Under the pieces are notes generated by a model. The model did not search any database and was not told the DNA's origin. It was given only the letters and a program-made list of their open reading frames with translations. Below, one piece after another: positions 92 through 17,453 of a stretch of DNA of 38,135 nt. Made by a program: the position numbers and the translations under genes. The DNA comes from Candidatus Krumholzibacteriota bacterium. Lineage in GTDB: Bacteria > Krumholzibacteriota > Krumholzibacteriia > Krumholzibacteriales > Krumholzibacteriaceae. The stretch's first letter is position 1. Each line of letters begins with the position of its first letter. Location of the stretch: NCBI GenBank assembly GCA_016926065.1, contig JAFGPI010000006.1, forward strand, positions 1 through 38,135, in the 5' to 3' direction.

Positions 92-466
92 TCAACCGGA
101 AAAGAGCAGGGTGAAATCCCCGATCCCTATGCGGTCGCCGTTCCTTAAGATGCAACGGTGAATCTCTTTCCCGTTGATGCTGGTTCCGTGACGGCTGTTC
201 AGGTCTTCCAGGATATAATTATCCCCGCTGCGGGATATTATGGCGTGTTCTTCCGAGACGAAGGAGTGATCCAGGCAGATATCACAGCTTATGTCACTCC
301 CCAGAGAGATTTTCAATTTTTCCAGGGAAATTTTCAAACCGGCGAAGCAACCGTTGGTGATGGTCAGGGTGGCTTTTGATGTCCGGGAGTGGTTTTTTGA
401 CCGGAGACGGGGATTTTTCGATTCCTTACGGCGGTGATCTTTTTTGTGCTTGATCGTGGATGTCAT
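92..466 (-). CDS. Small FHA-domain protein with basic N-terminal tail
   Basis: The 124-residue product has a lysine/arginine-rich tail (about residues 1-35) followed by one forkhead-associated domain. FHA domains bind phosphothreonine peptides. The usual FHA marks are visible: a GSD turn after strand 3, the SxxHA element (VSEEHAIISR), and an N-terminal-to-loop LNSRHGTSINGK followed by LRNGDRIGIGDF. The start at 466 is preferred to the longer frame at 496 because AAGGTG lies just upstream of that ATG. There is no signal peptide or membrane segment, so it should be cytoplasmic. It lies 162 bp beyond the exosortase/PrsKR operon but has its own sigma-54-type promoter, which suggests co-regulation. 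It may be an adaptor for a Ser/Thr kinase or phosphatase; the PP2C gene at 17760 is the only candidate partner in the window. The fold is fairly sure; the partner is unknown. Confidence 0.85.
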   Translation of the reverse strand: MTSTIKHKKDHRRKESKNPRLRSKNHSRTSKATLTITNGCFAGLKISLEKLKISLGSDISCDICLDHSFVSEEHAIISRSGDNYILEDLNSRHGTSINGKEIHRCILRNGDRIGIGDFTLLFSG

Positions 467-527: not shown

Positions 528-542
528 GCAAATATTGTACCA
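528..542 (-). promoter_or_regulatory. Sigma-54 promoter of the FHA gene
   Basis: Reading the minus strand, TGGTAC-AATAT-TTGC matches the sigma-54 consensus TGGCAC-N5-TTGC with one change (T for C at the fourth base). The -24 GG is at 541-540 and the -12 GC at 529-528, the same 12-base spacing as at the two other sigma-54 sites in this window. Transcription would start near 516, about 50 bases before the ATG at 466. The same bases can be read as an extended -10 (TGGTACAAT), but no -35 accompanies it. Confidence 0.7.
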
Positions 543-600
543 TTTTGAAAAAATCCGCCTGGGGATGAGGGGTGATGGGTTTATATGAGAAGGCCTCTTG

Positions 601-616
601 CCTCCGGGACCGGAGG
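601..616. repeat. GC-rich inverted repeat upstream of the FHA promoter
   Basis: CCTCCG and CGGAGG form perfect 6-bp arms around a 4-base centre. The centre is 68 bp upstream of the -24 GG of the FHA sigma-54 promoter, near -92 from the expected start, a normal position for an enhancer-binding protein site. It is also 13 bp downstream of the stop of the lipoprotein gene at 629, so it could be a transcription-stop hairpin. No T-run follows it on the minus strand, which weakens the terminator reading. Confidence 0.45.
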
Positions 617-628
617 AGAAATTCAACT

Positions 629-1366
629 TCATCCGCCCCTGAGATATTTTATCTCCAGGCGGGGACCGAGGGTGGAATCCCCCGCTTCGCGCAGGTAAAT
701 TTCCCGGAAGGCTTCCTCCCCGGCGGCCGCGGACTTGATCAGCACCCCGTGGTTGGTCGCTGGATCATTCAGCCACCGTCGTATCAAGCCGGTGGAAATA
801 TTGAAGGTGATGACGGAATCTTCGTCCACGGTGCATTCGTCAAGGGGGGGAGAAAGGTAATCGCCTCCCTCGGTGAGCCAGGGCACGATACCGTCGGTCG
901 CGTACCAGGAGGCTCCCGCCGCCAGTCCGCCTAATCCTTCCACCCAGGATCCGGGCACGATAACCGGCACCACCGTCTCAAAGAGCCGGAAAGTGGCCGT
1001 ACCGGCTCCCCCCGGCTTTATCCGCAGGGACAGGCGGGCCTGCAGCACCACCGAGCAGTCGGTGATAAAAGTGATATCGGATCTAACGAGCAGTCTTCTT
1101 TCATAGTAATGGCCTTCCCGGAAAATCGTGCCCAGGGTGTCCTCTTGGTTGATACCGAAATTACCATTCCGGGTGATCCAGTAGGGGGATTCCTTGATCA
1201 CGGCGTCCCGGGTTCCGGCATAACCGGGAAAGGGGGCGATCCAATCTTGAAAGGCGACCCTGACCGTATCGGGCGCGGGGAGAAGGATGCGCTGCTTTTC
1301 ATCGCATCCTCCGGCTCCCAGCAGCAGGATGACCGGGAAGATAATATAAGGATATGCCCTTTTCAT
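629..1366 (-). CDS. DNRLRE-type (CBM96-like) lipoprotein
   Basis: The 245-residue product begins with a lipoprotein signal peptide ending at Cys21 (lipobox GAGGC), so it should be membrane anchored outside the cytoplasm. The rest resembles the DNRLRE/TGF-propeptide-like beta-sandwich domain: a WVEG segment, GASWYATDG, a region ending IRRWLNDPATNHGVLIKS, and a closing GPRLEIKYL strand. Such domains occur in surface and carbohydrate-binding proteins. The ATG overlaps the prsR stop by four bases (ATGA), making it the last gene of the exosortase operon. A cell-surface polysaccharide-binding role is plausible but inferred. The lipoprotein call is firm; the domain call is from pattern recognition only. 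Confidence 0.75.
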   Translation of the reverse strand: MKRAYPYIIFPVILLLGAGGCDEKQRILLPAPDTVRVAFQDWIAPFPGYAGTRDAVIKESPYWITRNGNFGINQEDTLGTIFREGHYYERRLLVRSDITFITDCSVVLQARLSLRIKPGGAGTATFRLFETVVPVIVPGSWVEGLGGLAAGASWYATDGIVPWLTEGGDYLSPPLDECTVDEDSVITFNISTGLIRRWLNDPATNHGVLIKSAAAGEEAFREIYLREAGDSTLGPRLEIKYLRGG

Positions 1367-2796
1367 TTTTTATTTTTGGGGGCCCTGAAGTCCTCGGGAT
1401 CGATTTGGTGCTTCTTCATTAGATCGTGCAGGGTGGGTCGGCTGACGCCCAGTTCCTGGGCCGCGGCCGAAACGTTGCCGGAATGGCGGAGCAGGGCGTT
1501 GTTGAGCAAACGGTTTTCCATTCCCTCCCGGGCTTCCTTTAGGGTGATGCCGGCGGTCGGGACAGAGGCACCCGCCTTTCCCTCCGCTCCGGCAAACCGC
1601 TCCTCCGCGCCCTCCGCCGGTGAGGGTAGATCCATGTCCGGGGGCTGTATCATCTTGCCCCGGCTCATTATCACCCCGCGCTTCACGCGGTTTTCAAGCT
1701 CCCGGACGTTACCGGGCCAGGAATAATTGTACAGGGTCTCCAGGGCCGCCTGGCTGAATCCCCGGACGTTCCGGGAATACTCCCGGTTGTAATGATGCAG
1801 AAAGTGCGTGGAGAGCAGAAGGATATCATCGTGACGCTGCTGGAGCGGGGGCAGGGGGATGCTGATGGTGTTGATCCGGTAATAAAGGTCCTCGCGAAAA
1901 GAACGGTCCTCCAGCATGGAAGCGAGATCCCGGTTGGTGGCGGCGATGATACGCACGTCGAGTTGGATCGGTTCCCGGCCTCCCACCCGTTCGATGACCT
2001 GATCCTGAAGAAACCGCAGGATCTTTACCTGCAGGGATGGAGGCAGCTCTCCGATTTCATCCAGAAACAGCGTTCCCCCGTCGGCCACTTCAAATTTGCC
2101 GGGGCGGGAAGCGTGCGCGCCGGTGAAACTTCCCTTTTCGTGTCCGAACAGCTCGCTTTCCAGGAGATTCTCCGGAATGGCCCCGCAGTTGATGGGGATG
2201 AAGGCTTTGTTTTGCCGGGGGCTGATCTTGTGTATGGCTCTGGCGATCAGCTCCTTGCCGGTGCCGCTTTCCCCCGTGATCAGCACGGAAACGTCAGTGG
2301 GGGCCACTTTCTTGACGGTTTCGAATATTTCCAGCATCGCCTCAGAGGTGGCGATGATACCCTCGAATTCGCGACCCCGATGGCCTTTCTTCTTCAGCCG
2401 GGAGATTTCCGATTCCAGCGACCGGATATAGGATGCCCTGCGCAGGATGGTGCGGAGTTCGTCGATGGCGACCGGTTTGGTGTAAAAATCGAGGGCTCCC
2501 CGCTCGATCGCCGTGAGGGCGTTTTCCTTGTCATCATGTCCGGTGATCACGATTACTTTCAGGGCGGGATCTATTTGCAGGGCCGATTCCAGGATCCGAA
2601 ATCCTTCCAGGTTGGCGGGGTCGCCTGTCAGGGACAGGTCCAGGATCATCAATTCGGGAGATTTGGTTTTCAGGGCGCCGATCGCTTCCTCGGCCGTTTG
2701 AGCGGTTATCACCTTGAAATCGTTTTTAAACGCCCACTGGAACTGTTTTAAAATAGCTTCTTCGTCATCAACCAGAAGCAAGGTGGTGGTGGTCAA
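1363..2796 (-). CDS. prsR: PrsR, sigma-54-dependent response regulator of the PEP-CTERM system
   Basis: The 477-residue protein has a receiver domain (about 1-125, acceptor Asp53 in LMILDLSLTG, and the family-typical VITGHDDKENAL ... GALDFYTKP). An AAA+ sigma-54 activation domain follows, with Walker A GESGTGKE, Walker B GGTLFLDEIGE, and the sigma-54 contact loop written GSFTGA instead of GAFTGA. A C-terminal Fis-type helix-turn-helix (SAAAQELGVSRPTLHDL) ends the protein. Phosphorylated by PrsK, it should activate sigma-54 RNA polymerase at PEP-CTERM and exosortase promoters. The start is a TTG at 2796 with GAAGGGA seven bases upstream. It lies 15 bp after prsK and overlaps the next lipoprotein gene. 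Three sigma-54 promoters in this window are its likely targets, including that of its own operon. rpoN itself is not in the window. Confidence 0.93.
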   Translation of the reverse strand: MTTTTLLLVDDEEAILKQFQWAFKNDFKVITAQTAEEAIGALKTKSPELMILDLSLTGDPANLEGFRILESALQIDPALKVIVITGHDDKENALTAIERGALDFYTKPVAIDELRTILRRASYIRSLESEISRLKKKGHRGREFEGIIATSEAMLEIFETVKKVAPTDVSVLITGESGTGKELIARAIHKISPRQNKAFIPINCGAIPENLLESELFGHEKGSFTGAHASRPGKFEVADGGTLFLDEIGELPPSLQVKILRFLQDQVIERVGGREPIQLDVRIIAATNRDLASMLEDRSFREDLYYRINTISIPLPPLQQRHDDILLLSTHFLHHYNREYSRNVRGFSQAALETLYNYSWPGNVRELENRVKRGVIMSRGKMIQPPDMDLPSPAEGAEERFAGAEGKAGASVPTAGITLKEAREGMENRLLNNALLRHSGNVSAAAQELGVSRPTLHDLMKKHQIDPEDFRAPKNKK

Positions 2797-2811
2797 TGGC
2801 GATCCCTTCTT

Positions 2812-5070
2812 TTATCCGGCCGGGCTGCCTGGAAACAAAACCCGGACATCGGCTCCCTCGCCCGGGCGGTTCCCGATACTGATCGATCCTCCATGCGCCT
2901 CAACCAGAGATTTACATAAAACCAGGCCGATGCCAAGACCGTTTTTCTTGGTGCTGCAAAAAGGCTTGAAAAGATGGTTATCCAGGTAAACCGGATCGAA
3001 ACCTTCTCCGGAATCGGAAACGGTAATGGAGAAGCCGGAATTATTTATTTCTTCCAAGGCGACCGAAATCTTTCCCCCGCTCCCGCAGGCCTCCAGGGCG
3101 TTGAGAACCAGGTTCTCCAACACCCGTTTAAGGGCCAGGGGGTCCGCGGTGGCGGTGATCTCATGCTCCGCCGTTACCACCAGATCGATTTTTTTCGCTC
3201 CCGCGTATTTTTTCAGGCCCAGGGCGGTTTCCAGGAGCAGCGCGTTCACCGGTACCTTGGTGGTGGATAGGGTGACCGGTCCCTGGTGGATGCGGAGCGA
3301 ATCAATCAACCGGCGCATCTTTTCGACCGACCGGTTGAGGGTGGTCACGGCGTCCCGCTGGAATTCGGCGTCCTGTATGTTATCCCGGGCGTTTTCCGCG
3401 GTGAGCGATAACATCCCCAGGGTATTCTTGAGATCGTGAATCACGTAGGCGGAAAAACGGTGGAAAGATTCCATTTGCCTCGATTCCAGGAATCTCTCCT
3501 CCATCAGTAGATTTTCCAGCGTCAGCATGGCCTGATCGGCGATGGTGGCCAGGAACTCCCGGTCTTCGTAAGAAAAAGGCGTGTCGATGTCTTTCCCGCC
3601 CAGGGCGATCAATCCGCGAAGTTCCTCCCCGTGGCTCAAAAAGGCCAGGGCGTTGATCCAGCCCAGTCTCCCCTGGGGGGCGGAAGGTTTTTCCTTCCCG
3701 GCGGAGGCGCGGAGCCTGTCCGGACGCGGCCTCTTGAATGTGACCACCGGGGATCCGGCGTAGTAATCGAGCAAGGCGCGGATCTCTCCGGCGTCCCGCT
3801 CCTCCTCGGCCACCCCGTAGCTGGAGGATTTCCCCCCTCCGGTGTCGACCCAGATGATTCCTTTTCGCACCAACATCGTTTCACAGAGGGAACTGATGGT
3901 GTTGGAGAGGAATTCCTCGATGGTCGAACTGGAAGCCATCAGCCGGGCGTAATGCCTCCACTCCTTGCGGTAATTGTACCTGCCCGGGTAGAAGTTTTCG
4001 TTGATAAAGCGCCGCAGCCGCCGCCGGGATTTTCCCGAGATGCCGGCGGCCAGAAGCAGGAAAATAATAAAGATTCCCAGCACCCAGAGCGCGAAACGAT
4101 CATAGGGCATGCCCGCCAGGGTGGAGATATAGGAGATCAGCGAAACCGCCAGGAGGTAGAGTCCGGCGATGGTGATGGTGATCACCGAGGCCTTCCCTTT
4201 CCGGTACGAACGGAATTGCACTTCGAAGAGGGGATAGCGGAAAAGCGCGTAGAGAAAAGAGACGGAAAACAGGATAAGCCCGCAGGAGTGAAGGGCCAGA
4301 AAATTCCGATCGATATGGGAGAGGGAGAGGCTACGGCTGATGACGATGAAATTGATCACGGAAGCGGAAATTATACCCAGCAGAGGATACTTGAGAGTGA
4401 CTTTTCCCGGTATGGTGGCAGCCCGGTAGGTGTTTTCGAAGGAATGGAGGATAAACACGTTGGAAAGGAGAAGGAATACCCCCAGAAGCTTGCCCGCCGC
4501 CGCGATGCTCAGCCCCCAGAACTGGTTGTCGTCGGTAAAGTGAATCCGCCCGGCCACCCAGCTGAGGGGGATAAAGAACGCGCCGGCGGTAAGCAGCAAC
4601 GTGAGTACCACCATGCCGTTCAGATTTCCGCGGGAAACCGCCCTCCCTTTTCTGCCGGACAGGAAGAGGAAGAGGCAAAGGATTAAAGGAGGGAGCAATA
4701 TGATCCCGTACGTAAACAACCGGAGGAGCGCGGCCGCGGCCAGCAGTATGGTGAGGCCGGCCAGATGCAGCGGGAAGGGGCGCGCGGGCGCTCTTTCATT
4801 CGCCCGGGAAAAAAGGGAGAAGAAGGAGAGGGCGTAGCCGGGTAACAGGATGGCGCAAAATACGATCACCCGCAGCCAGGACAGGGCCTCCTGGGGGGTG
4901 GCGGAAACGAGCATAAGGCCCTGAGCGCTCTCCAGAATTCCCAGCACCACGGAGGAAAGAAAAAAGAGTGCGGCCGGGGGATGGAATTTCCCCCGCAGCA
5001 GGCAACCCAGGACCAGGAAGGCCAGTAGTCCCGCCGCCGCCCAAGAAAAAAATGAAGGGAAATTGATCAT
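2812..5070 (-). CDS. prsK: PrsK, PEP-CTERM system membrane histidine kinase
   Basis: The 752-residue product has about ten hydrophobic segments in its first 320 residues, then a GAF-like domain, then a kinase core. The phosphorylated His is residue 545 in FSAYVIHDLKNTLGMLSL, the distinctive PrsK H-box. The N box is VLENLVLNALEACGSGG, and the ATP-binding G boxes are DSGEGFDP and GLGIGL. It should autophosphorylate and pass phosphate to PrsR encoded just downstream (15 bp). The start at 5070 is chosen because this ATG overlaps the stop of the TPR gene (ATGA) and opens directly into the first membrane helix; the 25 extra upstream codons of the open frame would lie inside the preceding gene. The signal sensed is unknown. 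Confidence 0.93.
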   Translation of the reverse strand: MINFPSFFSWAAAGLLAFLVLGCLLRGKFHPPAALFFLSSVVLGILESAQGLMLVSATPQEALSWLRVIVFCAILLPGYALSFFSLFSRANERAPARPFPLHLAGLTILLAAAALLRLFTYGIILLPPLILCLFLFLSGRKGRAVSRGNLNGMVVLTLLLTAGAFFIPLSWVAGRIHFTDDNQFWGLSIAAAGKLLGVFLLLSNVFILHSFENTYRAATIPGKVTLKYPLLGIISASVINFIVISRSLSLSHIDRNFLALHSCGLILFSVSFLYALFRYPLFEVQFRSYRKGKASVITITIAGLYLLAVSLISYISTLAGMPYDRFALWVLGIFIIFLLLAAGISGKSRRRLRRFINENFYPGRYNYRKEWRHYARLMASSSTIEEFLSNTISSLCETMLVRKGIIWVDTGGGKSSSYGVAEEERDAGEIRALLDYYAGSPVVTFKRPRPDRLRASAGKEKPSAPQGRLGWINALAFLSHGEELRGLIALGGKDIDTPFSYEDREFLATIADQAMLTLENLLMEERFLESRQMESFHRFSAYVIHDLKNTLGMLSLTAENARDNIQDAEFQRDAVTTLNRSVEKMRRLIDSLRIHQGPVTLSTTKVPVNALLLETALGLKKYAGAKKIDLVVTAEHEITATADPLALKRVLENLVLNALEACGSGGKISVALEEINNSGFSITVSDSGEGFDPVYLDNHLFKPFCSTKKNGLGIGLVLCKSLVEAHGGSISIGNRPGEGADVRVLFPGSPAG

Positions 5071-6560
5071 CTCAAATCCTGTATCCTGCGGTATTCCTTT
5101 TCCGCCGCCCGGGCCAGGTCGGTGTTCGGATATTTTTCCATGCACCGCCGCAGGGTCTGGGCCGCTTGTTCCAGGTCCTTAATTTCCTTTTCGTAGATGG
5201 AGGCGGCCATCAGGTAGTTTTCCCCGAATTTGCTGTATTCGGGGAACTTATCCGGCAGGGTAAGGAGCAATGCTATCGCTTCCGGCCATTTTCCCTGCTC
5301 CACGTACGCTCTCACGTAATATTCCGCCGCCATGATTTGGATGCTGGCGGAGTATTGGTTGGAAGATAGCTTCTTATAGTATGCTATGGCCTGGTCGTAA
5401 GAGGCGTCGGCCGCCGCCTTTTCCCCCTGGTCCCGGAAATGGTTGGCTATGCGCAGGGGGGATTCCAGGGCGGGCAGGGAACCGGGATAGTTGGCGTATA
5501 TGGATTTGTAAAGCAGGGAGGCCTCCAGCCAGTTTCCCCGGGCTTCCGCGATCTGGGCCAGTTGCCATTCGGCCTCGGCCGATTCCTTGGGTTTGGATTT
5601 GAATTCATCCACGATCTTTCGAAAGATTCTTTCCGCCTGGTCGTACTCCTTCCGCCGCATGTGGATCCCTCCGGCGGTAAGCCGGGCGGTCAACGATTCG
5701 TCCGCTTCCGGGTAGTCGGTGCTGATGCGGGAGAGGATCTCCAGCGCCCGGAGGGGGCGGCCGTAACCATCCTGCTCTATTTTCGCCTCCAGAAAGAGCA
5801 GGGAAGGCATATCGGAGGGGCCACCGTAAAGGTCTTTGAGCTCGCCGATGAGATTCAAAGCCCGGTCCCATTCCTTCTTCTGCAGGTAGACCGTGACCAG
5901 GTTGTACCGGTTCGCTTTCCGCGTTTCTTCCTCCAGGGCGGAATCGATTATAAGCAGAAAGATATTCTCGGCCTCCCGCAGGTAGCGGAGCTTTTCCTCC
6001 TTCCGTCCCGCCGCGGATTCGATTTCGGCCAATCGCAAGGGAACCAGTGGATAGCGGGAATTCATCCCCGCCGTCCACAGGACCTTATCCCGGCTGAGAA
6101 ACTCCTCCATGAATTTTCCGTAGAGGGAGCGGGCCCGCGGAATATCTCCTGTTTCCTGAGAGATGAAGGCGGCCGACCAGAGGGCGTTCGCTCTCGCTTC
6201 CGGAATGTTCCCGGCCCGGTGGTAGGCCTGGATGAAGTCTTCCCGGGCCGCGGCGAACATTCCGGTGCGGAATTCAAGTTCGGCCAGCTCCATTAAGGCC
6301 GATACCATCAGCATTTCCATACCCTCGATGCTGTCGGCGGAAGCGCCGTAATCGCTGATGACGCGGCGATAGGAGTTCAGGACCTCGTCCAGAAACTCGG
6401 AGTTACCCGTGGTCAGGATCATTTCATTGTTCATCTTCCGCGCTTTGAAGAGCGCCTTTTCCGCCGAGTAGCGTTTTTTCTGGCTGCTTTCGGTGCATCC
6501 CCCTATCAGGGGCAAGATTATGAGCGCTGCGGGCAGCAAGGTTTTAATTATCGATTTCAT
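5067..6560 (-). CDS. TPR-repeat lipoprotein of the exosortase operon
   Basis: The 497-residue protein starts with a lipoprotein signal (MKSIIKTLLPAALIILPLIGGC, Cys22). It then consists almost wholly of tetratricopeptide-like helical hairpins, with repeated patterns such as A..LY..I...YP.S and AE.IFRKIVDEFKSKPKESAEAEWQLAQIAEARGNW, resembling the BamD/YbgF class of TPR. It should be a periplasmic or outer-membrane-facing scaffold. It sits between the 6-TM protein (17-bp overlap) and prsK (4-bp overlap), so co-translation is likely. PrsT, the TPR lipoprotein known from PEP-CTERM loci, is much longer (about 900 residues). This protein may play an analogous part, but I do not equate them. Confidence 0.8.
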   Translation of the reverse strand: MKSIIKTLLPAALIILPLIGGCTESSQKKRYSAEKALFKARKMNNEMILTTGNSEFLDEVLNSYRRVISDYGASADSIEGMEMLMVSALMELAELEFRTGMFAAAREDFIQAYHRAGNIPEARANALWSAAFISQETGDIPRARSLYGKFMEEFLSRDKVLWTAGMNSRYPLVPLRLAEIESAAGRKEEKLRYLREAENIFLLIIDSALEEETRKANRYNLVTVYLQKKEWDRALNLIGELKDLYGGPSDMPSLLFLEAKIEQDGYGRPLRALEILSRISTDYPEADESLTARLTAGGIHMRRKEYDQAERIFRKIVDEFKSKPKESAEAEWQLAQIAEARGNWLEASLLYKSIYANYPGSLPALESPLRIANHFRDQGEKAAADASYDQAIAYYKKLSSNQYSASIQIMAAEYYVRAYVEQGKWPEAIALLLTLPDKFPEYSKFGENYLMAASIYEKEIKDLEQAAQTLRRCMEKYPNTDLARAAEKEYRRIQDLR

Positions 6561-7485
6561 CCATCGTTCTCCCTTGACTGGCTGGATTCCGGATGATTTT
6601 TCCGCCCGCTAAGGGGCGGCCTGTCTTTTTTTGACGTATAAATGCGATCGTCGCTCCGGCGGTGATTAAATATGTCGAGATCAGTCTCATGATCTCTCCG
6701 ATAACGTGAATATGGATCATAAACTCGGGGGAGAGCCGCAAAGATATGATTTCCGCTTTATAGTTCAAGAGCATCGTGGGAATGGTCAGCACAAAGGGCA
6801 GGCCCACCAGGAGCAAGGTTTTTAAAAAGGAGCTCCAGGCCAGGATAAAGCTTTTACCGATCGCCTGGCTGAAAGAGCTTCCCCGCAGGAGTATAAAGGG
6901 CAGGGCATAGAGAAAGAGAGCCTGCATCACCAATCCCAAAAGTATTCCCAGGGCGATAATTCCTTTTCCGGCCGCTCCCTCGAAGGAGGCGGACAGAGCG
7001 CGGGTGAGGGTGATGACGGCGAAGATACAGCAGGAAGCCAGCAGGGAGGTTATCACCAAGTGCGGATAACGTTTGAGGGAGTGCTTGAAGCTCCCCCCCA
7101 CCGAAACCGGATTTTCCCGGAAGGCCGCGGCGACCAGCAGGATGATGGCTCCCTGAAATATAACGTGCACCAGGATATCCGACAGGATATCGAATCTGCC
7201 CAGTACGGCCTGCATGAGGATCAAGTGTTCGGGAAAATGACTCAAACGTTCTCCCGTGAGGCCGGGCCACAGGGCGGCCCAGAACCTATTCAGGGGGCTG
7301 TGGATGCAGAGCAAATAGCAAGTCATAACTCCAATCTGGAGAAGGAAGTACAGGCCGGAGGGCAGGATCAATCGGATATCGTGAAGCAGTGTCAGGGATG
7401 TTTGAAAAGCCCGAAAGGCCGAACGGGCGTTGGTGGGAAGGTCGAAGCGGGGATCGCCGGAAGTTCTGTCCGCTGTATAACCCAT
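6544..7485 (-). CDS. Six-helix inner-membrane protein of the exosortase operon
   Basis: The 313-residue protein has a short cytoplasmic N-terminus (about 40 residues), then roughly six hydrophobic segments (near 38-60, 95-125, 140-165, 175-200, 215-240 and 260-285) and a basic C-terminal tail. It has no signal peptide and no catalytic motif I recognise. The general look recalls YciC/DUF975-like integral membrane proteins, but I cannot place it in a family. It starts 6 bp after the epsI stop and its end overlaps the TPR lipoprotein gene by 17 bp, so it belongs to the operon. A role as a membrane partner of exosortase sorting or of polysaccharide export is inference from position only. Confidence 0.75.
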   Translation of the reverse strand: MGYTADRTSGDPRFDLPTNARSAFRAFQTSLTLLHDIRLILPSGLYFLLQIGVMTCYLLCIHSPLNRFWAALWPGLTGERLSHFPEHLILMQAVLGRFDILSDILVHVIFQGAIILLVAAAFRENPVSVGGSFKHSLKRYPHLVITSLLASCCIFAVITLTRALSASFEGAAGKGIIALGILLGLVMQALFLYALPFILLRGSSFSQAIGKSFILAWSSFLKTLLLVGLPFVLTIPTMLLNYKAEIISLRLSPEFMIHIHVIGEIMRLISTYLITAGATIAFIRQKKTGRPLAGGKIIRNPASQGRTMDEIDN

Positions 7486-7491
7486 GCGCTA

Positions 7492-8160
7492 TCAACCTTT
7501 CTCCTGGAAGGGGGGGGATTCCGGGGCCAGGGCCGCCTGGATGGCGGGGGATAAAGTTTCGATGAAACGGATCAGGTCTTGCCGGGCCCGGCCGGAGCCG
7601 CCCGCGGGGATTCCGGTGGAAAAGCGGATGAAGGTGGCGGCCGGAGAACGGGCCAAGATGTTGCTTTTCATCTGCCGCCATTTCAAGCTGAATTCATCGT
7701 GAATCGTCTCTCCGTTCATGTCGAACCAGTAGAACACCAGCCGGCGTTCCTTCCCGTCCGTAATGGTTATCTCTTTAACCCGCGCCTCCCTGCTTCCCAG
7801 CCTAATCCGGGGAGAGCCTTCGGCCAGTATATCCCAGCCCGATCCGGGATAGCAATGCTTGGGTGAGTGGATCTGTGAATTTTCTTGGGGGGAGGCGAAA
7901 TATCCCAGGAACAGTTCGATCGGTCCCGCCTGGTTCCGGTAGGAACGCGCCAGGGTGGCGTCGGCCCCCAGCAGGCGCAGGGAGGCCGGCTCCAGGTATT
8001 CATCCCGGGAGGAATACCCGCCTATCTCCCGGGGGATCAGAGCCAGGTCCGGGGATGGTGGTTTCATCATCGATCGGTCGCGCAGCGCGTGGACGTATCC
8101 GGTCAGCAGGGAGAGAACTACCAGCAGGAGCACCAATCTTTTTATCTCTATTTTTTCCAT
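7492..8160 (-). CDS. epsI: EpsI, exosortase-associated protein
   Basis: The 222-residue protein has one N-terminal membrane helix (about 6-25) and an exported domain with the EpsI signature IHSPKHCYPGSGWDILAEG, followed by VFYWFDMNGETIHDEFSLKW. EpsI is regularly encoded beside, or fused to, exosortases of PEP-CTERM systems and is thought to work with them in surface-protein sorting or exopolysaccharide production; its exact reaction is not established. The ATG at 8160 with GGGGA eight bases upstream is preferred over the frame's earlier start at 8178. It overlaps the end of the exosortase gene by 13 bp, indicating translational coupling. Confidence 0.93.
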   Translation of the reverse strand: MEKIEIKRLVLLLVVLSLLTGYVHALRDRSMMKPPSPDLALIPREIGGYSSRDEYLEPASLRLLGADATLARSYRNQAGPIELFLGYFASPQENSQIHSPKHCYPGSGWDILAEGSPRIRLGSREARVKEITITDGKERRLVFYWFDMNGETIHDEFSLKWRQMKSNILARSPAATFIRFSTGIPAGGSGRARQDLIRFIETLSPAIQAALAPESPPFQEKG

Positions 8161-8999
8161 CTCAGTATCCCCACGCACAATAACAGTAATAGAAATCCGG
8201 AGAGGAAAACGATTAAGCCCGAGATTTCATGTAGGATTCCGTCGGCGAATTCGGGTCCGATGGCGTAGGCCCCCAGGGCGGTGGATACCAGCCGCACGGT
8301 GTTGGCCGCTATGGCCGCGGGAACGGCGCAAGCGGCCAGGATCAGCCTTCTCCGGGTGGAAAGTGCCGAGAAGGCCGCGAATATCAAGGCCAGGGTGAAC
8401 ATGGTCATCAGGGAACGCAATCCGCTGCAGGCGGCCACCACCTCCAGGGTGTAACCGGGGAGCAGTAAGATATTTCCCTTGCGGATTACACTTACCCGGA
8501 GAATCTCCAAAAGGCCGGCGCTTAACTGGGCGCTCAGTATCTGCAGGGGAAAGGTGATTTTGTAATATATGATATAGGGCAGGGGGATCATCAGCAGCAA
8601 AAAGAGCAGGGGGAAGGCGGATTTCCGCGTAAATTCGCTTCCCCGGAGAAAGAGGGTCGTGCCCAGAATAAGGAGCGGCAGGGAGAGTCTGCTGGTGAAG
8701 AGTTCGGAAGCGGCGGTTCCCCCGATCAACAATCCGGCGGACAGGAAGATGATCGCCAATCCCACCAGGGTTCCCCCCCGGCGGGGTATGGTCCCCAGGG
8801 AGGCGCGTATCCTCCAGAGCATATATAGAGAAACCAGGGGGATCAGGACGCAGTACCGGTAATTGGCGTCTTCCACGTACTGGACGATCAAACCGGCCAG
8901 TACCGGATAGTACAGCAGCGCCAGCAGGGCGCACCCCGAGGCAAGCAAAATTATTCTCAACTTGGGATGCGCGCGGGGGATAGCTTCGGTGATGAGCAA
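8148..8999 (-). CDS. xrtA: Exosortase (XrtA-like transpeptidase)
   Basis: This polytopic membrane enzyme (about eight helices, 283 residues from the chosen start) has the exosortase catalytic set. The nucleophile is Cys191 in VVAACSGLRSL, Arg lies in NTVRLVS, and His in ILHEISG. It should cleave PEP-CTERM proteins near their C-terminal motif and transfer them to a surface anchor. The frame is open from 9068, with an ATG at 9035. I prefer the TTG at 8999 because a strong ribosome site (GGAGAAGGAAGG) precedes it, while neither upstream start has one and the predicted transcript itself begins near 9068. Adjacent epsI, prsK and prsR support the A-type assignment, but the exact subclass needs a profile search. 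It is the first gene of a seven-gene operon. Confidence 0.92.
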   Translation of the reverse strand: MLITEAIPRAHPKLRIILLASGCALLALLYYPVLAGLIVQYVEDANYRYCVLIPLVSLYMLWRIRASLGTIPRRGGTLVGLAIIFLSAGLLIGGTAASELFTSRLSLPLLILGTTLFLRGSEFTRKSAFPLLFLLLMIPLPYIIYYKITFPLQILSAQLSAGLLEILRVSVIRKGNILLLPGYTLEVVAACSGLRSLMTMFTLALIFAAFSALSTRRRLILAACAVPAAIAANTVRLVSTALGAYAIGPEFADGILHEISGLIVFLSGFLLLLLCVGILRWKK

Positions 9000-9079
9000 A
9001 ATCCTTCCTTCTCCCGATAAGAAAATAGGCAACATTTTGCATATAGCGGGTTTTATTAATTTTAACAAGGGTTATAACA

Positions 9080-9094
9080 GCAAGAGGGGTGCCA
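9080..9094 (-). promoter_or_regulatory. Sigma-54 promoter of the exosortase operon
   Basis: On the minus strand TGGCAC-CCCTC-TTGC is a perfect match to the -24/-12 consensus TGGCAC-N5-TTGC. The -24 GG is at 9093-9092 and the -12 GC at 9081-9080. The start would be near 9068, giving a leader of about 70 bases to the TTG start at 8999. Because prsK and prsR lie in this operon, the promoter implies positive autoregulation. Confidence 0.85.
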
Positions 9095-9145
9095 GAAAAA
9101 GCGGGCGCCGCTACGACACCCGCCGGTGAGGTCTTATTCTCCATC

Positions 9146-9169
9146 GGCCCCGGTTTTCCGTCGGGGGCC
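9146..9169. repeat. GC-rich inverted repeat upstream of the exosortase promoter
   Basis: GGCCCC and GGGGCC arms flank a 12-base centre. The midpoint is 65 bp upstream of the -24 GG, about -89 from the expected start. It also lies 30 bp after the stop of the PEP-CTERM gene, so it may be that gene's transcription-end hairpin; no T-run follows it on the minus strand. Its distance agrees with the repeats at 601 and 10053. Confidence 0.45.
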
Positions 9170-9198
9170 TACTTACCGGAAGCTTCTCTTCTCCGGGG

Positions 9199-9915
9199 CT
9201 ACTTTTTCCTCCTCAGTAGGGGAGCTATACCCAGTAGTCCCAGGCCCAGCAGGCTCAGGGTGCCGGGTTCCGGGGTGGCGAAGTATGACGAATCATGGTC
9301 ATAGGTGCTGGAATAGGTGCGTCCGTTCCTATCGACGCCGATGGCGTCGAAGTGCGCCCAGTCAAAGCCGCTGACCACCACATCGAGCAGGATTTCATCG
9401 CCCCAGCCGGGCTCGGTGATCTGACCGTGATCGTAATGCCACGCGTTCTGCTGGCTGTTGTCTATCCGACCGATATCCTGAAAATTATATTTTCCGAAAA
9501 TCGAGGGACGGGTGAGGGGGATCAGCCAGGAAGGATTGGTGCCCTCCGGCCGGGCATCGAAGAAATTGGTGAAGCTATTTATCTGCACCCCGTTGATCCA
9601 CACCGTCCCGGACTGTCTTAGGGGAACGCTGATGGCCACGTAGCAATCCATATAGTCATAGCTGGGGGCGCTGGTGCCGGTCAGGAAATTAACGCTACCG
9701 CCGCCGGTGGCTGCTTGCGTCGATCCCCAGTAACCCACCACCTTGAGATCGAAGTTGCGTTGGTTGGCGATCCAAGAGCGGCTGTCGAGATAGTTGTAAT
9801 TGTATTCATATCTTGAATTTACTATATATGTCTGCAATCGGGGAACAGCCAGGGCTGATCCGGCAAAGAACAACGCCAGCAAAACCGCCAGATCTAAGAT
9901 AAGAAGCTTCTTCAT
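9199..9915 (-). CDS. PEP-CTERM sorting-domain protein
   Basis: The 238-residue product has a signal peptide (cleavage expected after GSALA, near residue 23), an exported beta-rich domain, and a textbook PEP-CTERM tail. The tail consists of ATPEPGTLSLLGLGLLG, a short hydrophobic helix and the basic end LLRRKK. It is the expected substrate of the exosortase encoded just downstream. The body (SWIANQRNFDLKVVGYWG ... YVAISVPL) resembles the choice-of-anchor N group, but that is tentative. GGGAGGAAATA precedes the ATG. A perfect sigma-54 promoter lies upstream, so expression should depend on PrsR. The gene lies between the secreted basic protein and the exosortase operon, all on one strand but in separate transcription units. 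Confidence 0.92.
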   Translation of the reverse strand: MKKLLILDLAVLLALFFAGSALAVPRLQTYIVNSRYEYNYNYLDSRSWIANQRNFDLKVVGYWGSTQAATGGGSVNFLTGTSAPSYDYMDCYVAISVPLRQSGTVWINGVQINSFTNFFDARPEGTNPSWLIPLTRPSIFGKYNFQDIGRIDNSQQNAWHYDHGQITEPGWGDEILLDVVVSGFDWAHFDAIGVDRNGRTYSSTYDHDSSYFATPEPGTLSLLGLGLLGIAPLLRRKK

Positions 9916-9982
9916 TATTTCCTCCCGGGTGTCGGGTTATTTATTAGATAGATAACAAATTTAATTTCTGTCCAAATATATC

Positions 9983-9997
9983 GCAATCGGCGTGCCA
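9983..9997 (-). promoter_or_regulatory. Sigma-54 promoter of the PEP-CTERM gene
   Basis: Minus-strand TGGCAC-GCCGA-TTGC is a perfect -24/-12 element; the -24 GG is at 9996-9995 and the -12 GC at 9984-9983. The start is expected near 9971, about 55 bases before the ATG at 9915. The 10010-10045 stretch upstream is AT-rich and contains a small inverted repeat (ATTGT-TTC-ACAAT, 10019-10031), which could help bending between an enhancer and the promoter. Confidence 0.88.
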
Positions 9998-10045: not shown

Positions 10046-10070
10046 CGCTGTTGGGGGATATCCCCCAGCG
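10046..10070. repeat. Inverted repeat upstream of the PEP-CTERM promoter (candidate PrsR site)
   Basis: The core GGGGGATATCCCCC (10053-10066) is a perfect 14-bp palindrome, and outer bases CGCT/AGCG extend it across a 3-base bulge. Its centre is 64 bp upstream of the -24 GG, about -88 from the expected start. Unlike the other two repeats, it is not next to a gene end: the upstream gene stops at 10248 and already has a clear terminator at 10167-10195. A regulatory site is therefore the better reading here. Confidence 0.55.
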
Positions 10071-10166
10071 GCAAAAGTGTAAAGAATTTCGACATTATCG
10101 GCGAAATGGAGCTGTTCCCGTCTATCCCCGGGCGCCCTGGTTTGAATAGGGTAGCCGCGGTAAGAT

Positions 10167-12591: not shown

Positions 12592-13809
12592 ATGCGAATT
12601 CTTTTTCTTACCGCCCGCTTACCCTTTCCCCCCATCGGAGGGGATAAGCTAAGGGCCTTTAATTTTATTAAGTATCTGGCCCGCCATCATGATGTGGATT
12701 TGATCTCTTTCATATCGGATCAGGATGAGATTGATAATATTTCGGAATATTCTCCCCTAGTCGGTCAGTGCCATACGGTGAAGCTTTCCAAAAAGAGGTC
12801 ATATTTTAATTCTTTTTGCGGATTATTCTCCTCCCTTCCCCTGCAGATTAAGTATTATTCGTCGGCCAAGATGCAGCAGGTCATTTCGCGCCAATTAAAG
12901 ACCTGGGAATATGATTTGATTTTCGTGCATCTTTTCAGAATGGCGGAATTCGTGAAGGATTACGACCAGGTTCCCAAGCTGCTGGATTTAACGGACGCCC
13001 TGTCCCTCAACTACGAGCGTTCCGAAAAATTCATGAGGGGGGCTTCCTATCTGCTCAATTTCATCGAGAAGAAAAGGGTCTTCCGGTACGAATCCGATAT
13101 TATCGAGCATTTTGACAAAAACATATTTGTTTCCCCGGTGGATAAGAATTACTTCACGCATTTTGACAATCATGAGAACGTGGATGTGATTCCCAACGGC
13201 GTGGACGTTAATTATTTTCAGTATTTCAACCAGCCTCCCGATTTCAACAAGTTGGTTTTCCTGGGTAACATGAGGACTTTCCCCAACGCCGATGCGGTGG
13301 TTTATTTCGTCGAGAAAATCATGCCCCTGGTAAGAAAAGAAAAACCGGATATCAGCCTCTATATAGTAGGCTCCGAACCGACCCGCAAGGTTAAGAAATG
13401 CATTCATAAAAAGAACATTTTCGTGACCGGTTCGGTGGACGACGTGCGGCCCTATCTGCAGCAGGCCGCGGTCTCGGTTTGCCCCATGCGCACCGGCGCC
13501 GGAGTAAAAAACAAGATTCTCGAATCGATGGCGGTGGGCACCCCGGTGGTAAGTACCACGCGGGGCGCGGAAGGACTGGAAACCGCGCCGGGTGAGAATA
13601 TCGTCATCTCGGATTCCGCCGAGCAATTCGCCGGAGAGATAATAAAGTTGCTGGAGAACCGGGTTTTTCATAAGAAGATATCCCTCAACGGCCGTAAGCT
13701 GGTCGAAGAAAGGTATACCTGGAACCGGGCGCTTGGCAAGATCGATCAGATGATAGACGATTTCAGCGGACATGAGCCGAAGATCGAGCTGGTCAAAGAA
13801 ACCGTCTAA
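12592..13809 (+). CDS. PEP-CTERM/exopolysaccharide-associated glycosyltransferase (TIGR03087-type)
   Basis: The 405-residue GT-B protein opens with MRILFLTARLPFPPIGGDKL and RAFNFIKYLARHHDVDLISF. This is the characteristic start of the sugar transferase family found beside exosortase loci (TIGR03087, Stp1). Later motifs are FVSPVDKNYF, DVIPNGVDVNYF, LVFLGNMRTFPNADAV, and the donor-site segment PMRTGAGVKNKILESMAVGT. It probably adds a sugar during synthesis of the exopolysaccharide that accompanies PEP-CTERM proteins. AAGAGG precedes the ATG. The first part of the gene is clearly AT-richer than its neighbours (hand counts of 37-45% GC per 60 bases in 12661-12840), hinting at a separate origin. 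Confidence 0.88.
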   Translation: MRILFLTARLPFPPIGGDKLRAFNFIKYLARHHDVDLISFISDQDEIDNISEYSPLVGQCHTVKLSKKRSYFNSFCGLFSSLPLQIKYYSSAKMQQVISRQLKTWEYDLIFVHLFRMAEFVKDYDQVPKLLDLTDALSLNYERSEKFMRGASYLLNFIEKKRVFRYESDIIEHFDKNIFVSPVDKNYFTHFDNHENVDVIPNGVDVNYFQYFNQPPDFNKLVFLGNMRTFPNADAVVYFVEKIMPLVRKEKPDISLYIVGSEPTRKVKKCIHKKNIFVTGSVDDVRPYLQQAAVSVCPMRTGAGVKNKILESMAVGTPVVSTTRGAEGLETAPGENIVISDSAEQFAGEIIKLLENRVFHKKISLNGRKLVEERYTWNRALGKIDQMIDDFSGHEPKIELVKETV

Positions 13810-14267: not shown

Positions 14268-17200
14268 ATGACTAGAAGGTCACTGGCGATAATACCGTTG
14301 GCGATGTTATGCCTGTACACGGCAGCGTTCGCCGATACCCGGAATATCGCCCTCACTTTCGATCAGGATTCGCTGGTTTTCAGCCAGGTAGTGGACGGCC
14401 TCGATACCTTCGACGTGGTGGAGTACCGGGGGTACATTTTTACTACCCTGATCGGGGAGCCCCAGCTGCCCCAGGGTAACATCCATGTGCTGGTGGACAC
14501 CGGGGCGGTAATAATCGATTCGGTGGTGGTGACCTATTTCGACACCGATACCCTTCCCGGCAAATATTACCTCTGGCCCGTGCAACCGCCCGATAGCACC
14601 CCCGGAACCGGTCCGGAGATCGATTTCACCAAACCGGACCCCCGGGTCTATGGCTCCACCGCCGCCTACCCGGAGGATTTGCTGGATTACGCTCACCAGG
14701 GATACCTGGCGGGAACTTGCCTGGCCGGAATGCTGGCTCATCCCCTGCAATATCTTCCGGACGATAGTCTGTTGATCTTTCACAACAGTGTCGATTTTAC
14801 CGTTTATTACCACCAGGGAGGGGTAGCCCCCGCTCTTTTCGCCTGGAGGTCTGATTTGATTAAATGGCTTATCGAGTGGTTGCTTAGCAAGCTGGTGATC
14901 AATCCGGGGGATATGGTTCCCGATCCCCGCTACGCCGGGGAATTCGACTATGTGATAATAACCAACGAAACCCTCAGTCCCAATTTTCAAAAGTTGATAG
15001 AATGGAAGACCAAGAAGGGCGTCAATGCCTTCATTAAAACCACCAACGAGATAATTGTCGAGTACACCGGTGACGACGATCAGGAGAAAATCCGGAATTA
15101 CATCATTGACGCCTACCGTGCCGGAGTGAGCTGGTTCCTGCTGGGAGGGGATGTGAGCGTGATCCCGGAGAGGGAGTGTCACCTGGATATATTCGGCTTA
15201 TCGGTCGATATCCCCTGCGATCTCTACTATTCCGATCTGGATGGCGATTGGGACGGCGACGGAGATGGCGTGTACGGAGAGCCGGACGATGGTGTCGATA
15301 TGTATCCGGATGTTTTCGTGGGCCGGGCCCCGGTGGAGACGGCGGCGGAGGTGAACGTTTTCGTCAACAAGGTGGTGGATTATGAGAGGTGGCCGCCGCT
15401 GACCGATTATCCGCTGGAGATGCTGATGATGGGATTCGACCTGGACACCAGGACCTTTTCCGAGGAAACCAAGGATTATATCGACACCCACTGCGTGCCG
15501 GCCCGCTTCGATCCGATCACCAAGCGGTATGAAGGAGTCACCAAGCAGTCCTGCCTGGACGCGCTGGATGACGGTCATAACCTGGTCAATCACTCGGGCC
15601 ACTGCAATTACAGTGTGATGGGAACCTCGGGCGGTAACCTCACCCTCACCGATGTCGACAATCTGGTGAACGGCGACCGCCAGTCGGTTCTTTATTCGGT
15701 GGGCTGCATGGCGGCCGGATTCGACTGGAGCGGGGGAGATTGCATCGCGGAGCATTTTCTCCAGAATGCGGGTGGGGGCGCGGTGGCCTTCGTGGGCAAT
15801 TCCCGCTACGGGCTCTATACTTCCGGAGAAAACCCCTGGATCAGCCGCTCGGCGGCTTACGATATAAGTTATTTCAAATCCCTGCTGGCCCACCGGGTGG
15901 TCCACAGCGGCCAGACCCTGGCGCGCTCCAAGACCGAATATGTGATCACCGCCGGATCGGATGATGCCTACAGATTCACCATGTACGCCCTCAACCTGCT
16001 CGGTGATCCGGAGATGCCGATCTGGACCGATGATTTTAATACCTTCGACGTAACCGAGCAAACCCTGCAGGTGCCGGTGGGAGTGGGGACCTCCTTCCAG
16101 ATTGCGGTGGATGATCAGGGAGGCTCTCCGGTAAACGATGCCTTTGTCTGCCTCTCGGGGTGCGGGGTGTACGAGACCGGATTTACCAATGGTTCGGGAC
16201 AATTTTCCCGGACCGTAAATCCCACCGGCTACGGACACATCAGCGTTACCATCACCAAGCCGGACTTCCTGCCCTACGTCAGTTACTCCAAGGCCTGCAA
16301 CGGTTATGAGGATGTTATCATACGGGATTGCGTGGGGGATGACGGCCGGATGCCCTCCTGGGACGTAAACCATAACGACAAGTACGAATATGGAGATCCC
16401 GACCGGGGTTACTGGAACAGCCCCGATATCCTGATCGATAACGATCTCGACGGCATCCCGGGGGAGCCGGGAGAGGATAGCCCCGTACCGGGTAAGATCA
16501 ATCACGTCTATGCCTACGTCAAGAATATCGGAACCGCCGCCGCCACGGCGGTAACGGTGGAGTTCTGGTGGGCCGATTACGGATTGGGAAGCCCGGTGTG
16601 GGGAGAGGATTTTCACCTTATCGGTTCCTACGTGATCCCTTACCTGGGGGTGGGAGAAACCGACACCGCCCATTGGGTGACTTGGGATGTTTCCCTGGGC
16701 CAGCCCCGGCACACCTGTATCTGGGTGACCATATATTGCGCCACCGATCCCATAGTAAGGCACAATGCCGGCTGGGAAAACAACATCGGCTGGAGGAATT
16801 ACGCCATTGAGACCCTGACCGAGACGGGAGGAGGGGATTATGAGGTGGTGGTGGATTTCAAGGTCTGCAATCCGGATAGCGTGCACGGACACGACGTTTG
16901 CTTCGGCCTGCACCTCGAGGATTGGCCCGGCTGGTCCCTGGAGGTGAGCTCGGCGGATCCCGATTTCACTCAGCTTGGCTCCACCGAGTTCCTATTCGCT
17001 TCGGTCGATCCCGGAGAGAGAAAGGATGCCCAACTCACCGTTACCGCTGCGGCGGGAACGGAAAACGATTCCGGGATAGTGCATCTGGCCGGCACCATCG
17101 AGGGTGAGCCGATCGTGGGAGCGTCCCTGGAGATACTACCTCCCTCGATCACCGGGGTGGATGATTCTCATCCCCAGGGCAAGATCCCCGCAGTCAGCTC

Positions 17201-17453
17201 CCTGGCTCAGAACTATCCCAATCCGTTCAATCCCGTGACCCAGATCAAATACCAACTGGCGCGCGATTGCCACGTAAGGCTGGAGGTTTTCAACATCCTG
17301 GGGCAGAAGGTGGCAATCCTGGTTGACGAGCGGCAGGAAGCGGGTTACAAAACGATTAGCTGGAACGCCGGTTCACTGTCCAGCGGGATCTATTTCTACC
17401 GCCTGCGGGCCGGGGATTTCCGACAAACCCGTAAGATGGTATTGCTGAAGTAA
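14268..17453 (+). CDS. Secreted gingipain-like C25 peptidase with T9SS-type sorting domain
   Basis: The 1061-residue protein has a signal peptide (cut after AAFA, about residue 22), a propeptide-like region to about 215, and a C25 catalytic domain. The likely catalytic His is residue 445 in VNHSGHCNY, and the nucleophile is Cys480 in LYSVGCMAAGF, followed by AEHFLQNAGGGAVAFVGNSR. Then come Ig/CARDB-like beta domains (about 600-960). The last 80 residues form a Por-type C-terminal sorting domain: NYPNPFNPVTQIKYQL, VRLEVFNILGQKV, LSSGIYFYRLRAG and a final MVLLK. It should be a cysteine endopeptidase passed through the outer membrane and attached outside. AAGGAGG precedes the ATG. No T9SS machinery gene is in the window. 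Confidence 0.92.
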   Translation: MTRRSLAIIPLAMLCLYTAAFADTRNIALTFDQDSLVFSQVVDGLDTFDVVEYRGYIFTTLIGEPQLPQGNIHVLVDTGAVIIDSVVVTYFDTDTLPGKYYLWPVQPPDSTPGTGPEIDFTKPDPRVYGSTAAYPEDLLDYAHQGYLAGTCLAGMLAHPLQYLPDDSLLIFHNSVDFTVYYHQGGVAPALFAWRSDLIKWLIEWLLSKLVINPGDMVPDPRYAGEFDYVIITNETLSPNFQKLIEWKTKKGVNAFIKTTNEIIVEYTGDDDQEKIRNYIIDAYRAGVSWFLLGGDVSVIPERECHLDIFGLSVDIPCDLYYSDLDGDWDGDGDGVYGEPDDGVDMYPDVFVGRAPVETAAEVNVFVNKVVDYERWPPLTDYPLEMLMMGFDLDTRTFSEETKDYIDTHCVPARFDPITKRYEGVTKQSCLDALDDGHNLVNHSGHCNYSVMGTSGGNLTLTDVDNLVNGDRQSVLYSVGCMAAGFDWSGGDCIAEHFLQNAGGGAVAFVGNSRYGLYTSGENPWISRSAAYDISYFKSLLAHRVVHSGQTLARSKTEYVITAGSDDAYRFTMYALNLLGDPEMPIWTDDFNTFDVTEQTLQVPVGVGTSFQIAVDDQGGSPVNDAFVCLSGCGVYETGFTNGSGQFSRTVNPTGYGHISVTITKPDFLPYVSYSKACNGYEDVIIRDCVGDDGRMPSWDVNHNDKYEYGDPDRGYWNSPDILIDNDLDGIPGEPGEDSPVPGKINHVYAYVKNIGTAAATAVTVEFWWADYGLGSPVWGEDFHLIGSYVIPYLGVGETDTAHWVTWDVSLGQPRHTCIWVTIYCATDPIVRHNAGWENNIGWRNYAIETLTETGGGDYEVVVDFKVCNPDSVHGHDVCFGLHLEDWPGWSLEVSSADPDFTQLGSTEFLFASVDPGERKDAQLTVTAAAGTENDSGIVHLAGTIEGEPIVGASLEILPPSITGVDDSHPQGKIPAVSSLAQNYPNPFNPVTQIKYQLARDCHVRLEVFNILGQKVAILVDERQEAGYKTISWNAGSLSSGIYFYRLRAGDFRQTRKMVLLK

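Follow-up and report, generated by a model that had tools for sequence, protein, structure and literature searches.

We analysed a 38,135-nt stretch of DNA from a Candidatus Krumholzibacteriota bacterium (GCA_016926065.1, contig JAFGPI010000006.1; the whole stretch is called the window below), which appears to carry a one-substrate exosortase locus with a sigma-54 promoter of its own before the PEP-CTERM gene (9199-9915). An original prediction had placed three sigma-54 promoters, those of the PEP-CTERM gene, of the exosortase-prsKR operon and of an FHA gene, in one self-regulating regulon of the activator PrsR. Our comparison with related genomes would shrink this proposal to a single well-supported target plus a possible one, and would leave the third promoter unrelated; the word regulon itself overstates the case because the genome has one detectable PEP-CTERM gene. 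The best explanation as a whole, to which we assign a probability of about 0.8, is that PrsR probably activates the PEP-CTERM promoter from a box 80 bp upstream of it (box 1), that the exosortase-EpsI-TPR-prsK-prsR operon would start at a separate -24/-12 element right after the PEP-CTERM terminator, and that the conserved sigma-54 promoter of the FHA gene would be served by another activator.

The PEP-CTERM promoter is the well-supported target. In Proteobacteria, motif 1 of Haft et al. (2006) is 17 nt long and ends in TTTACA, and is followed by a spacer of 32-92 nt and then by the -24/-12 element (PMC1569441). Box 1 has the same length and the same TTTACA end and lies upstream of a PEP-CTERM gene; its 80-nt spacer falls within the published range, as do the 67 nt read from the sequence between the -12 C and the probable ATG at 9915 (published about 71, range 23-221). 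The consensus that we used was built on the published description of motif 1, not on its logo (PMC1569441). Box 1 shows zero mismatches to it and is the sole zero-mismatch TGTCGN6TTTACA in the 3.02-Mb genome (93.7% complete). A palindrome stands between box 1 and the promoter, and a similar GGG...CCCA is found in most relatives, with moderate conservation.

These relatives were collected through an exosortase search in the same class, in which 28 of 80 genomes have an exosortase; they belong to Ca. Krumholzibacteriota, one of them bearing the label Latescibacterota, and provided 20 loci for comparison (21 with the window). Elements, conservation, spacing, linkage and gene identities were read directly from these sequences. 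Since the exosortases are only about 55-66% identical, short conserved intergenic elements are informative. At every readable leading PEP-CTERM promoter of the relatives, a TGTCGRNATTYTTTACA-like box precedes the -24 element by 79-83 bp; within tandem PEP-CTERM arrays, inner genes can be without a box (L063, L062). Searched as one composite pattern, box plus -24/-12 element occurs in 14 of 78 genomes of the class and in none with the reversed control. Genomes G016 and G017 account for two extra composite sites, which lie before PEP-CTERM paralogs on other contigs, unlinked to the locus; the PEP-CTERM genes of G012 have the composite too, and a third paralog in G016 has the box with a weaker -12. 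Because box and promoter are found before unlinked PEP-CTERM paralogs, the signal tracks the PEP-CTERM gene, not the locus. The part of the original prediction that made the PEP-CTERM gene a sigma-54/PrsR target is therefore borne out by a full Haft-type box and a -24/-12 element, conserved across the order and before unlinked paralogs. The sigma-54 promoter and the activator box next to it, of a type known from Proteobacteria, probably form the switch for one exosortase-sorted surface protein. At an outgroup PEP-CTERM gene (L166, genome G001), TGTCGGAAACCGTTACA lies about 52 bp before GGGTATGCGGCTTGC, which suggests that the box logic extends beyond the group with a different spacing.

Of the 21 loci, 13 have an intact element before the exosortase operon (TGGCAYCCCTCTTGC); in four (L054, L055, L057, L061) its -12 GC has become GT, and another four (L063, L064, L068, L069) lack it. 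The exosortase itself probably starts at TTG 8999, behind GGAAGG and 81 bp from the -12 C; the listed open reading frame start, 9068, would coincide with the predicted +1. The T run of the predicted PEP-CTERM terminator abuts the -24 element, and a hairpin with a T run is also present in the four relatives that were folded. No box was found within 350 bp of this promoter in loci other than L065, which has a perfect box 15 bp upstream. Sigma-54 activators are able to act over about 1 kb. The boxless operon element may respond to the boxes about 0.8-1.0 kb upstream, which would make the feedback conditional. A positive loop on prsKR is thus possible, and several relatives can apparently dispense with it.

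The operon may also have a sigma-70-like promoter, possibly overlapping the sigma-54 promoter, for which the evidence is suggestive. Similar elements occur in many relatives, including those without a sigma-54 site; alone, the element of the window is not significant (shuffle p 0.35), and neither are those of most single sequences. Taken over all loci, the sigma-70 pattern was found in 14 of 21 versus 0.9 in shuffles, in a test that was designed after seeing the alignment and that missed the window itself. Such a promoter may supply the basal PrsKR needed by the switch. We give slightly less than an even chance to the alternative that the boxes from which PrsR drives the PEP-CTERM gene also let it drive the exosortase-prsKR operon, 0.8-1.0 kb away, leaving the FHA gene out. 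This alternative draws on the conservation of the operon element in the majority of loci and on L065, which couples a box directly to the operon promoter, but has to accommodate the repeated loss of the -12 or of the whole element while the PEP-CTERM promoter was kept, and the sigma-70-like element may suffice for the operon.

A second, inverted box (box 2) lies downstream of the PEP-CTERM promoter. In all 21 PEP-CTERM promoters compared, the best reverse-strand match to the box is offset by +49 to +52 from the -24 element, and the scores of forward-strand matches are close to zero or negative. The start codon lies at a far more variable distance from the -24 element (about 70-93) than this offset, and perfect copies (11/11) are found in L054, L059, L124 and L135. 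PrsR probably binds box 2 as well, either bridging the boxes around the promoter or limiting its output. Boxes 1 and 2 are 148 bp apart in most promoters, and this nearly fixed separation is only suggestive. We put forward as tentative, and on balance rather unlikely, the idea that oppositely oriented PrsR boxes about 148 bp apart (about 14 helical turns, on the same DNA face) would loop the promoter and act as a built-in gate, not as a simple upstream enhancer. We know of no report of an inverted downstream box, Haft et al. mentioning only repeats of motif 1 before the spacer. Motif 1 is indeed sometimes repeated there (PMC1569441). In the Desulfovibrio vulgaris exosortase locus, the sole proteobacterial one obtained from the plasmid collection, no box 2 was found locally.

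Several points weigh against the explanation that we favor. Box 2 is poor in the window, with 8 of 11 key positions and a shuffle p of 0.034. The constant 148-bp separation was not accepted as proof of looping, the permutation p being 0.11 with position-weight offsets; a cruder locator gave 0.047, but misplaced L069. The box next to the exosortase promoter of L065 is not required by our model. Finally, the genome encodes about 20 sigma-54 activators, so that it is homology and co-occurrence that single out PrsR as the binder. Binding by PrsR, transcription, feedback, looping and the signal are all inferred.

The inverted element could also be something other than a box, namely a leader RNA element, a -10 hexamer (TATAAT) or the site of another regulator. 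The end of the box does read TATAAT in many relatives and the copy in the window is weak; however, no conserved -35 matches it, its position is tied to the promoter and not to the start codon, and four promoters have perfect box matches. We consider this reading unlikely.

The FHA promoter stands apart. Its -24/-12 element, with 62 bp between the -12 C and the probable ATG at 466, precedes the FHA gene in 23 of 23 orthologs retrieved by the class search, and no box was found within 420 bp of it. The promoter is kept in four genomes (G015, G033, G029 and G027; G027 and G029 are incomplete) where the searches found neither an exosortase nor a PEP-CTERM gene and no PrsR that reaches the cut-off, and the FHA gene lies 1.1 Mb from the exosortase locus in the one-contig genome G014. 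The FHA promoter is real but most likely the property of another activator, and its assignment to the PrsR regulon found no support. The proposal as first made, direct activation of the three promoters by PrsR with prsKR in a positive loop, is quite improbable: it can count on three real and conserved elements, on an exosortase element that most loci keep intact and on the perfect box of L065, but the boxless FHA promoter persists in genomes without exosortase, PEP-CTERM gene or full-score PrsR, no box lies near the exosortase promoter outside L065, and the damage to, or loss of, the exosortase element (four loci each) occurred in about three separate groups.

The three elements themselves are present where they had been described. 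Indeed, TGGYACN5TTGC has exactly four matches in the window, all on the minus strand (528-542, 4596-4610, 9080-9094 and 9983-9997), for a chance expectation of 0.12 and a maximum of 1 among 100 shuffles. The match at 4596-4610, which the original prediction did not mention, lies inside the prsK coding sequence without counterpart in relatives and was discarded as a promoter. Note that these pattern searches, with the reversed pattern as a control in the genome-wide survey, are independent of the sigma-54 matrix used for promoter scoring, which is approximate and was modelled on the published consensus. Genome-wide, the bare pattern is weak, with 16 matches versus 11 for the reversed control; 4 of the 16 sit in 1.3% of the genome. 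A chance origin, with which these genome-wide counts would agree, is scarcely credible: it is rejected at the PEP-CTERM and FHA promoters and improbable at that of the exosortase operon, since the elements are kept at orthologous positions although the DNA around them has diverged and 33 of 35 matches in the 20 relative loci (tallied by hand) precede the same three genes.

The genome does encode RpoN (PF04552, E 2e-64, contig C165), on which the original prediction depended. The enrichment of -24/-12 matches before PEP-CTERM genes that it foresaw cannot hold here, since neither of two models detected a PEP-CTERM gene in the genome other than 9199-9915. The other genome matches precede pilM (127 bp upstream; G000:C112:9701-9715, L006), an lptC gene that lies upstream of rpoN by about 2.5 kb and is followed by an lptB-like frame (G000:C165:20801-20815, L013), lipoproteins and a glycosyltransferase, and further ones an Omp85-type protein, a second FHA protein (L003) and lipoproteins. 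Through the L013 match, rpoN too may be under sigma-54 control.

Table 1. Promoter elements, boxes and genes of the exosortase locus and of the FHA gene (window coordinates)
Feature	Position	Strand	Basis or remark
Activator box 1 TGTCGAAATTCTTTACA	10078..10094	-	Haft-2006 motif-1 type, predicted PrsR site; 80 bp upstream of -24 element
Palindrome TGGGGGATATCCCCCA	10052..10067	.	10 bp after box 1
Sigma-54 -24/-12 element of PEP-CTERM gene TGGCACGCCGATTGC	9983..9997	-	pattern match; conserved in readable relatives and before unlinked paralogs
Inverted box 2 TGTCGGGTTATTTATTA	9930..9946	+	weak here, stronger in relatives; between promoter and ribosome-binding site
PEP-CTERM protein, choice-of-anchor N type	9199..9915	-	PF07589
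Predicted terminator of PEP-CTERM gene	9095..9125	-	hairpin -19.5 kcal/mol, then TTTTT
Sigma-54 -24/-12 element of exosortase-prsKR operon TGGCACCCCTCTTGC	9080..9094	-	pattern match; intact in 13/21 loci including the window
Possible sigma-70-like promoter TTGTTA-17-TATATG	9040..9068	-	just downstream of -12; suggestive only
Exosortase	8148..8999	-	TIGR02602, 178 bits, cut-off 105.6; start inferred from relatives and ribosome-binding site
EpsI (TIGR02914 / DUF3485)	7492..8178	-	114 bits, cut-off 43
Membrane protein without family, conserved in locus	6544..7485	-	profile search; relatives
TPR lipoprotein in the place of PrsT	5067..6560	-	matches TIGR02795 and other TPR models
PrsK sensor kinase	2812..5145	-	TIGR02916, 303.1 bits, cut-off 300; marginal
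PrsR sigma-54 activator; receiver, AAA+ and Fis-type domains	1363..2796	-	TIGR02915, 568 bits, cut-off 502.6
DNRLRE-like lipoprotein overlapping prsR	629..1366	-	probably last operon gene
Sigma-54 -24/-12 element of FHA gene TGGTACAATATTTGC	528..542	-	real; judged outside PrsR regulon
FHA-domain protein	92..466	-	probable start ATG 466; listed open reading frame starts 496

As far as the contigs reach, the 20 relative loci share the gene order PEP-CTERM, exosortase, EpsI, membrane protein, TPR protein, PrsK and PrsR, with DNRLRE and FHA genes often coming next after PrsR. Profile searches upheld the names first given to PrsR, the exosortase, EpsI and the PEP-CTERM protein, and barely that of PrsK. 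The TPR lipoprotein does not match the PrsT model TIGR02917, and the exosortase does not reach the cut-off for exosortase A (XrtA; TIGR03109, 174 bits, cut-off 208). A PEP-CTERM/XrtA-associated glycosyltransferase (TIGR03087, 327 bits, cut-off 317) is nevertheless encoded beside the locus (12592-13809, plus strand). Elsewhere in the class, G077 encodes a PrsR above the cut-off (C208:5114-6511, 565 bits), and no exosortase or PEP-CTERM gene was found in that 86% complete genome. The earlier remark that this lineage also has type IX secretion system (T9SS) proteins proved correct: T9SS type A sorting tails (TIGR04183) are present on two window proteins (14268-17453, which has a PorU-like peptidase region, and 33179-35530, both on the plus strand), and SprA is encoded at G000:C57:8233-12855, so that exosortase and T9SS coexist.

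PrsR-box/sigma-54 sites before PEP-CTERM genes, matching the PrsK/PrsR/PrsT profile in Proteobacteria, were inferred in 2006 (PMC1569441). The present site resembles them in its 17-nt box ending in TTTACA, its spacer within 32-92 nt, its -24/-12 element and its distance of about 70 bp to the start, and the system in its pairing of a TIGR02915 PrsR with a TIGR02916 PrsK. It differs in its host, since the 2006 system was reported as confined to Proteobacteria among the genomes then studied, and in its nearly fixed 80-bp spacer, its inverted second box downstream of the promoter, its usually single substrate per genome and its lack of a TIGR02917 PrsT (PMC1569441). In Aquincola tertiaricarbonis, RpoN dependence of pepA was established with an rpoN mutant and a start mapped by primer extension (PMC9850573). 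That RpoN1-dependent gene likewise has a -24/-12 element (TGGCAC/CTGCTT), a predicted upstream enhancer, a terminator after the gene and a TPR gene nearby; however, its downstream prsT is not sigma-54 dependent, whereas most relatives here have a sigma-54 element before the downstream operon (PMC9850573). In D. vulgaris, five predicted PEP-CTERM targets of the PrsR DVUA0057 were enriched by DNA-affinity-purified chip (PMC3333781). This is again a PrsR-family sigma-54 regulator linked to PEP-CTERM targets, but with several targets and no validated binding motif (PMC3333781).

In the literature searched, no paper was found that names Krumholzibacteriota together with PEP-CTERM or sigma-54. The PrsR/sigma-54 logic being already known in Proteobacteria, what is new is the phylum, the mostly single substrate, the nearly fixed spacing and the inverted second box. 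PrsR/sigma-54 control of exosortase substrates would thereby be carried from the Proteobacteria of 2006 to a phylum far removed from them, one with a T9SS as well. Setting the FHA promoter apart keeps it from being assigned to the wrong regulon, and the pair of flanking boxes makes a clear, testable prediction on how the activator works. With one to three substrates per genome, exosortase, regulator and target may be studied as one small unit.

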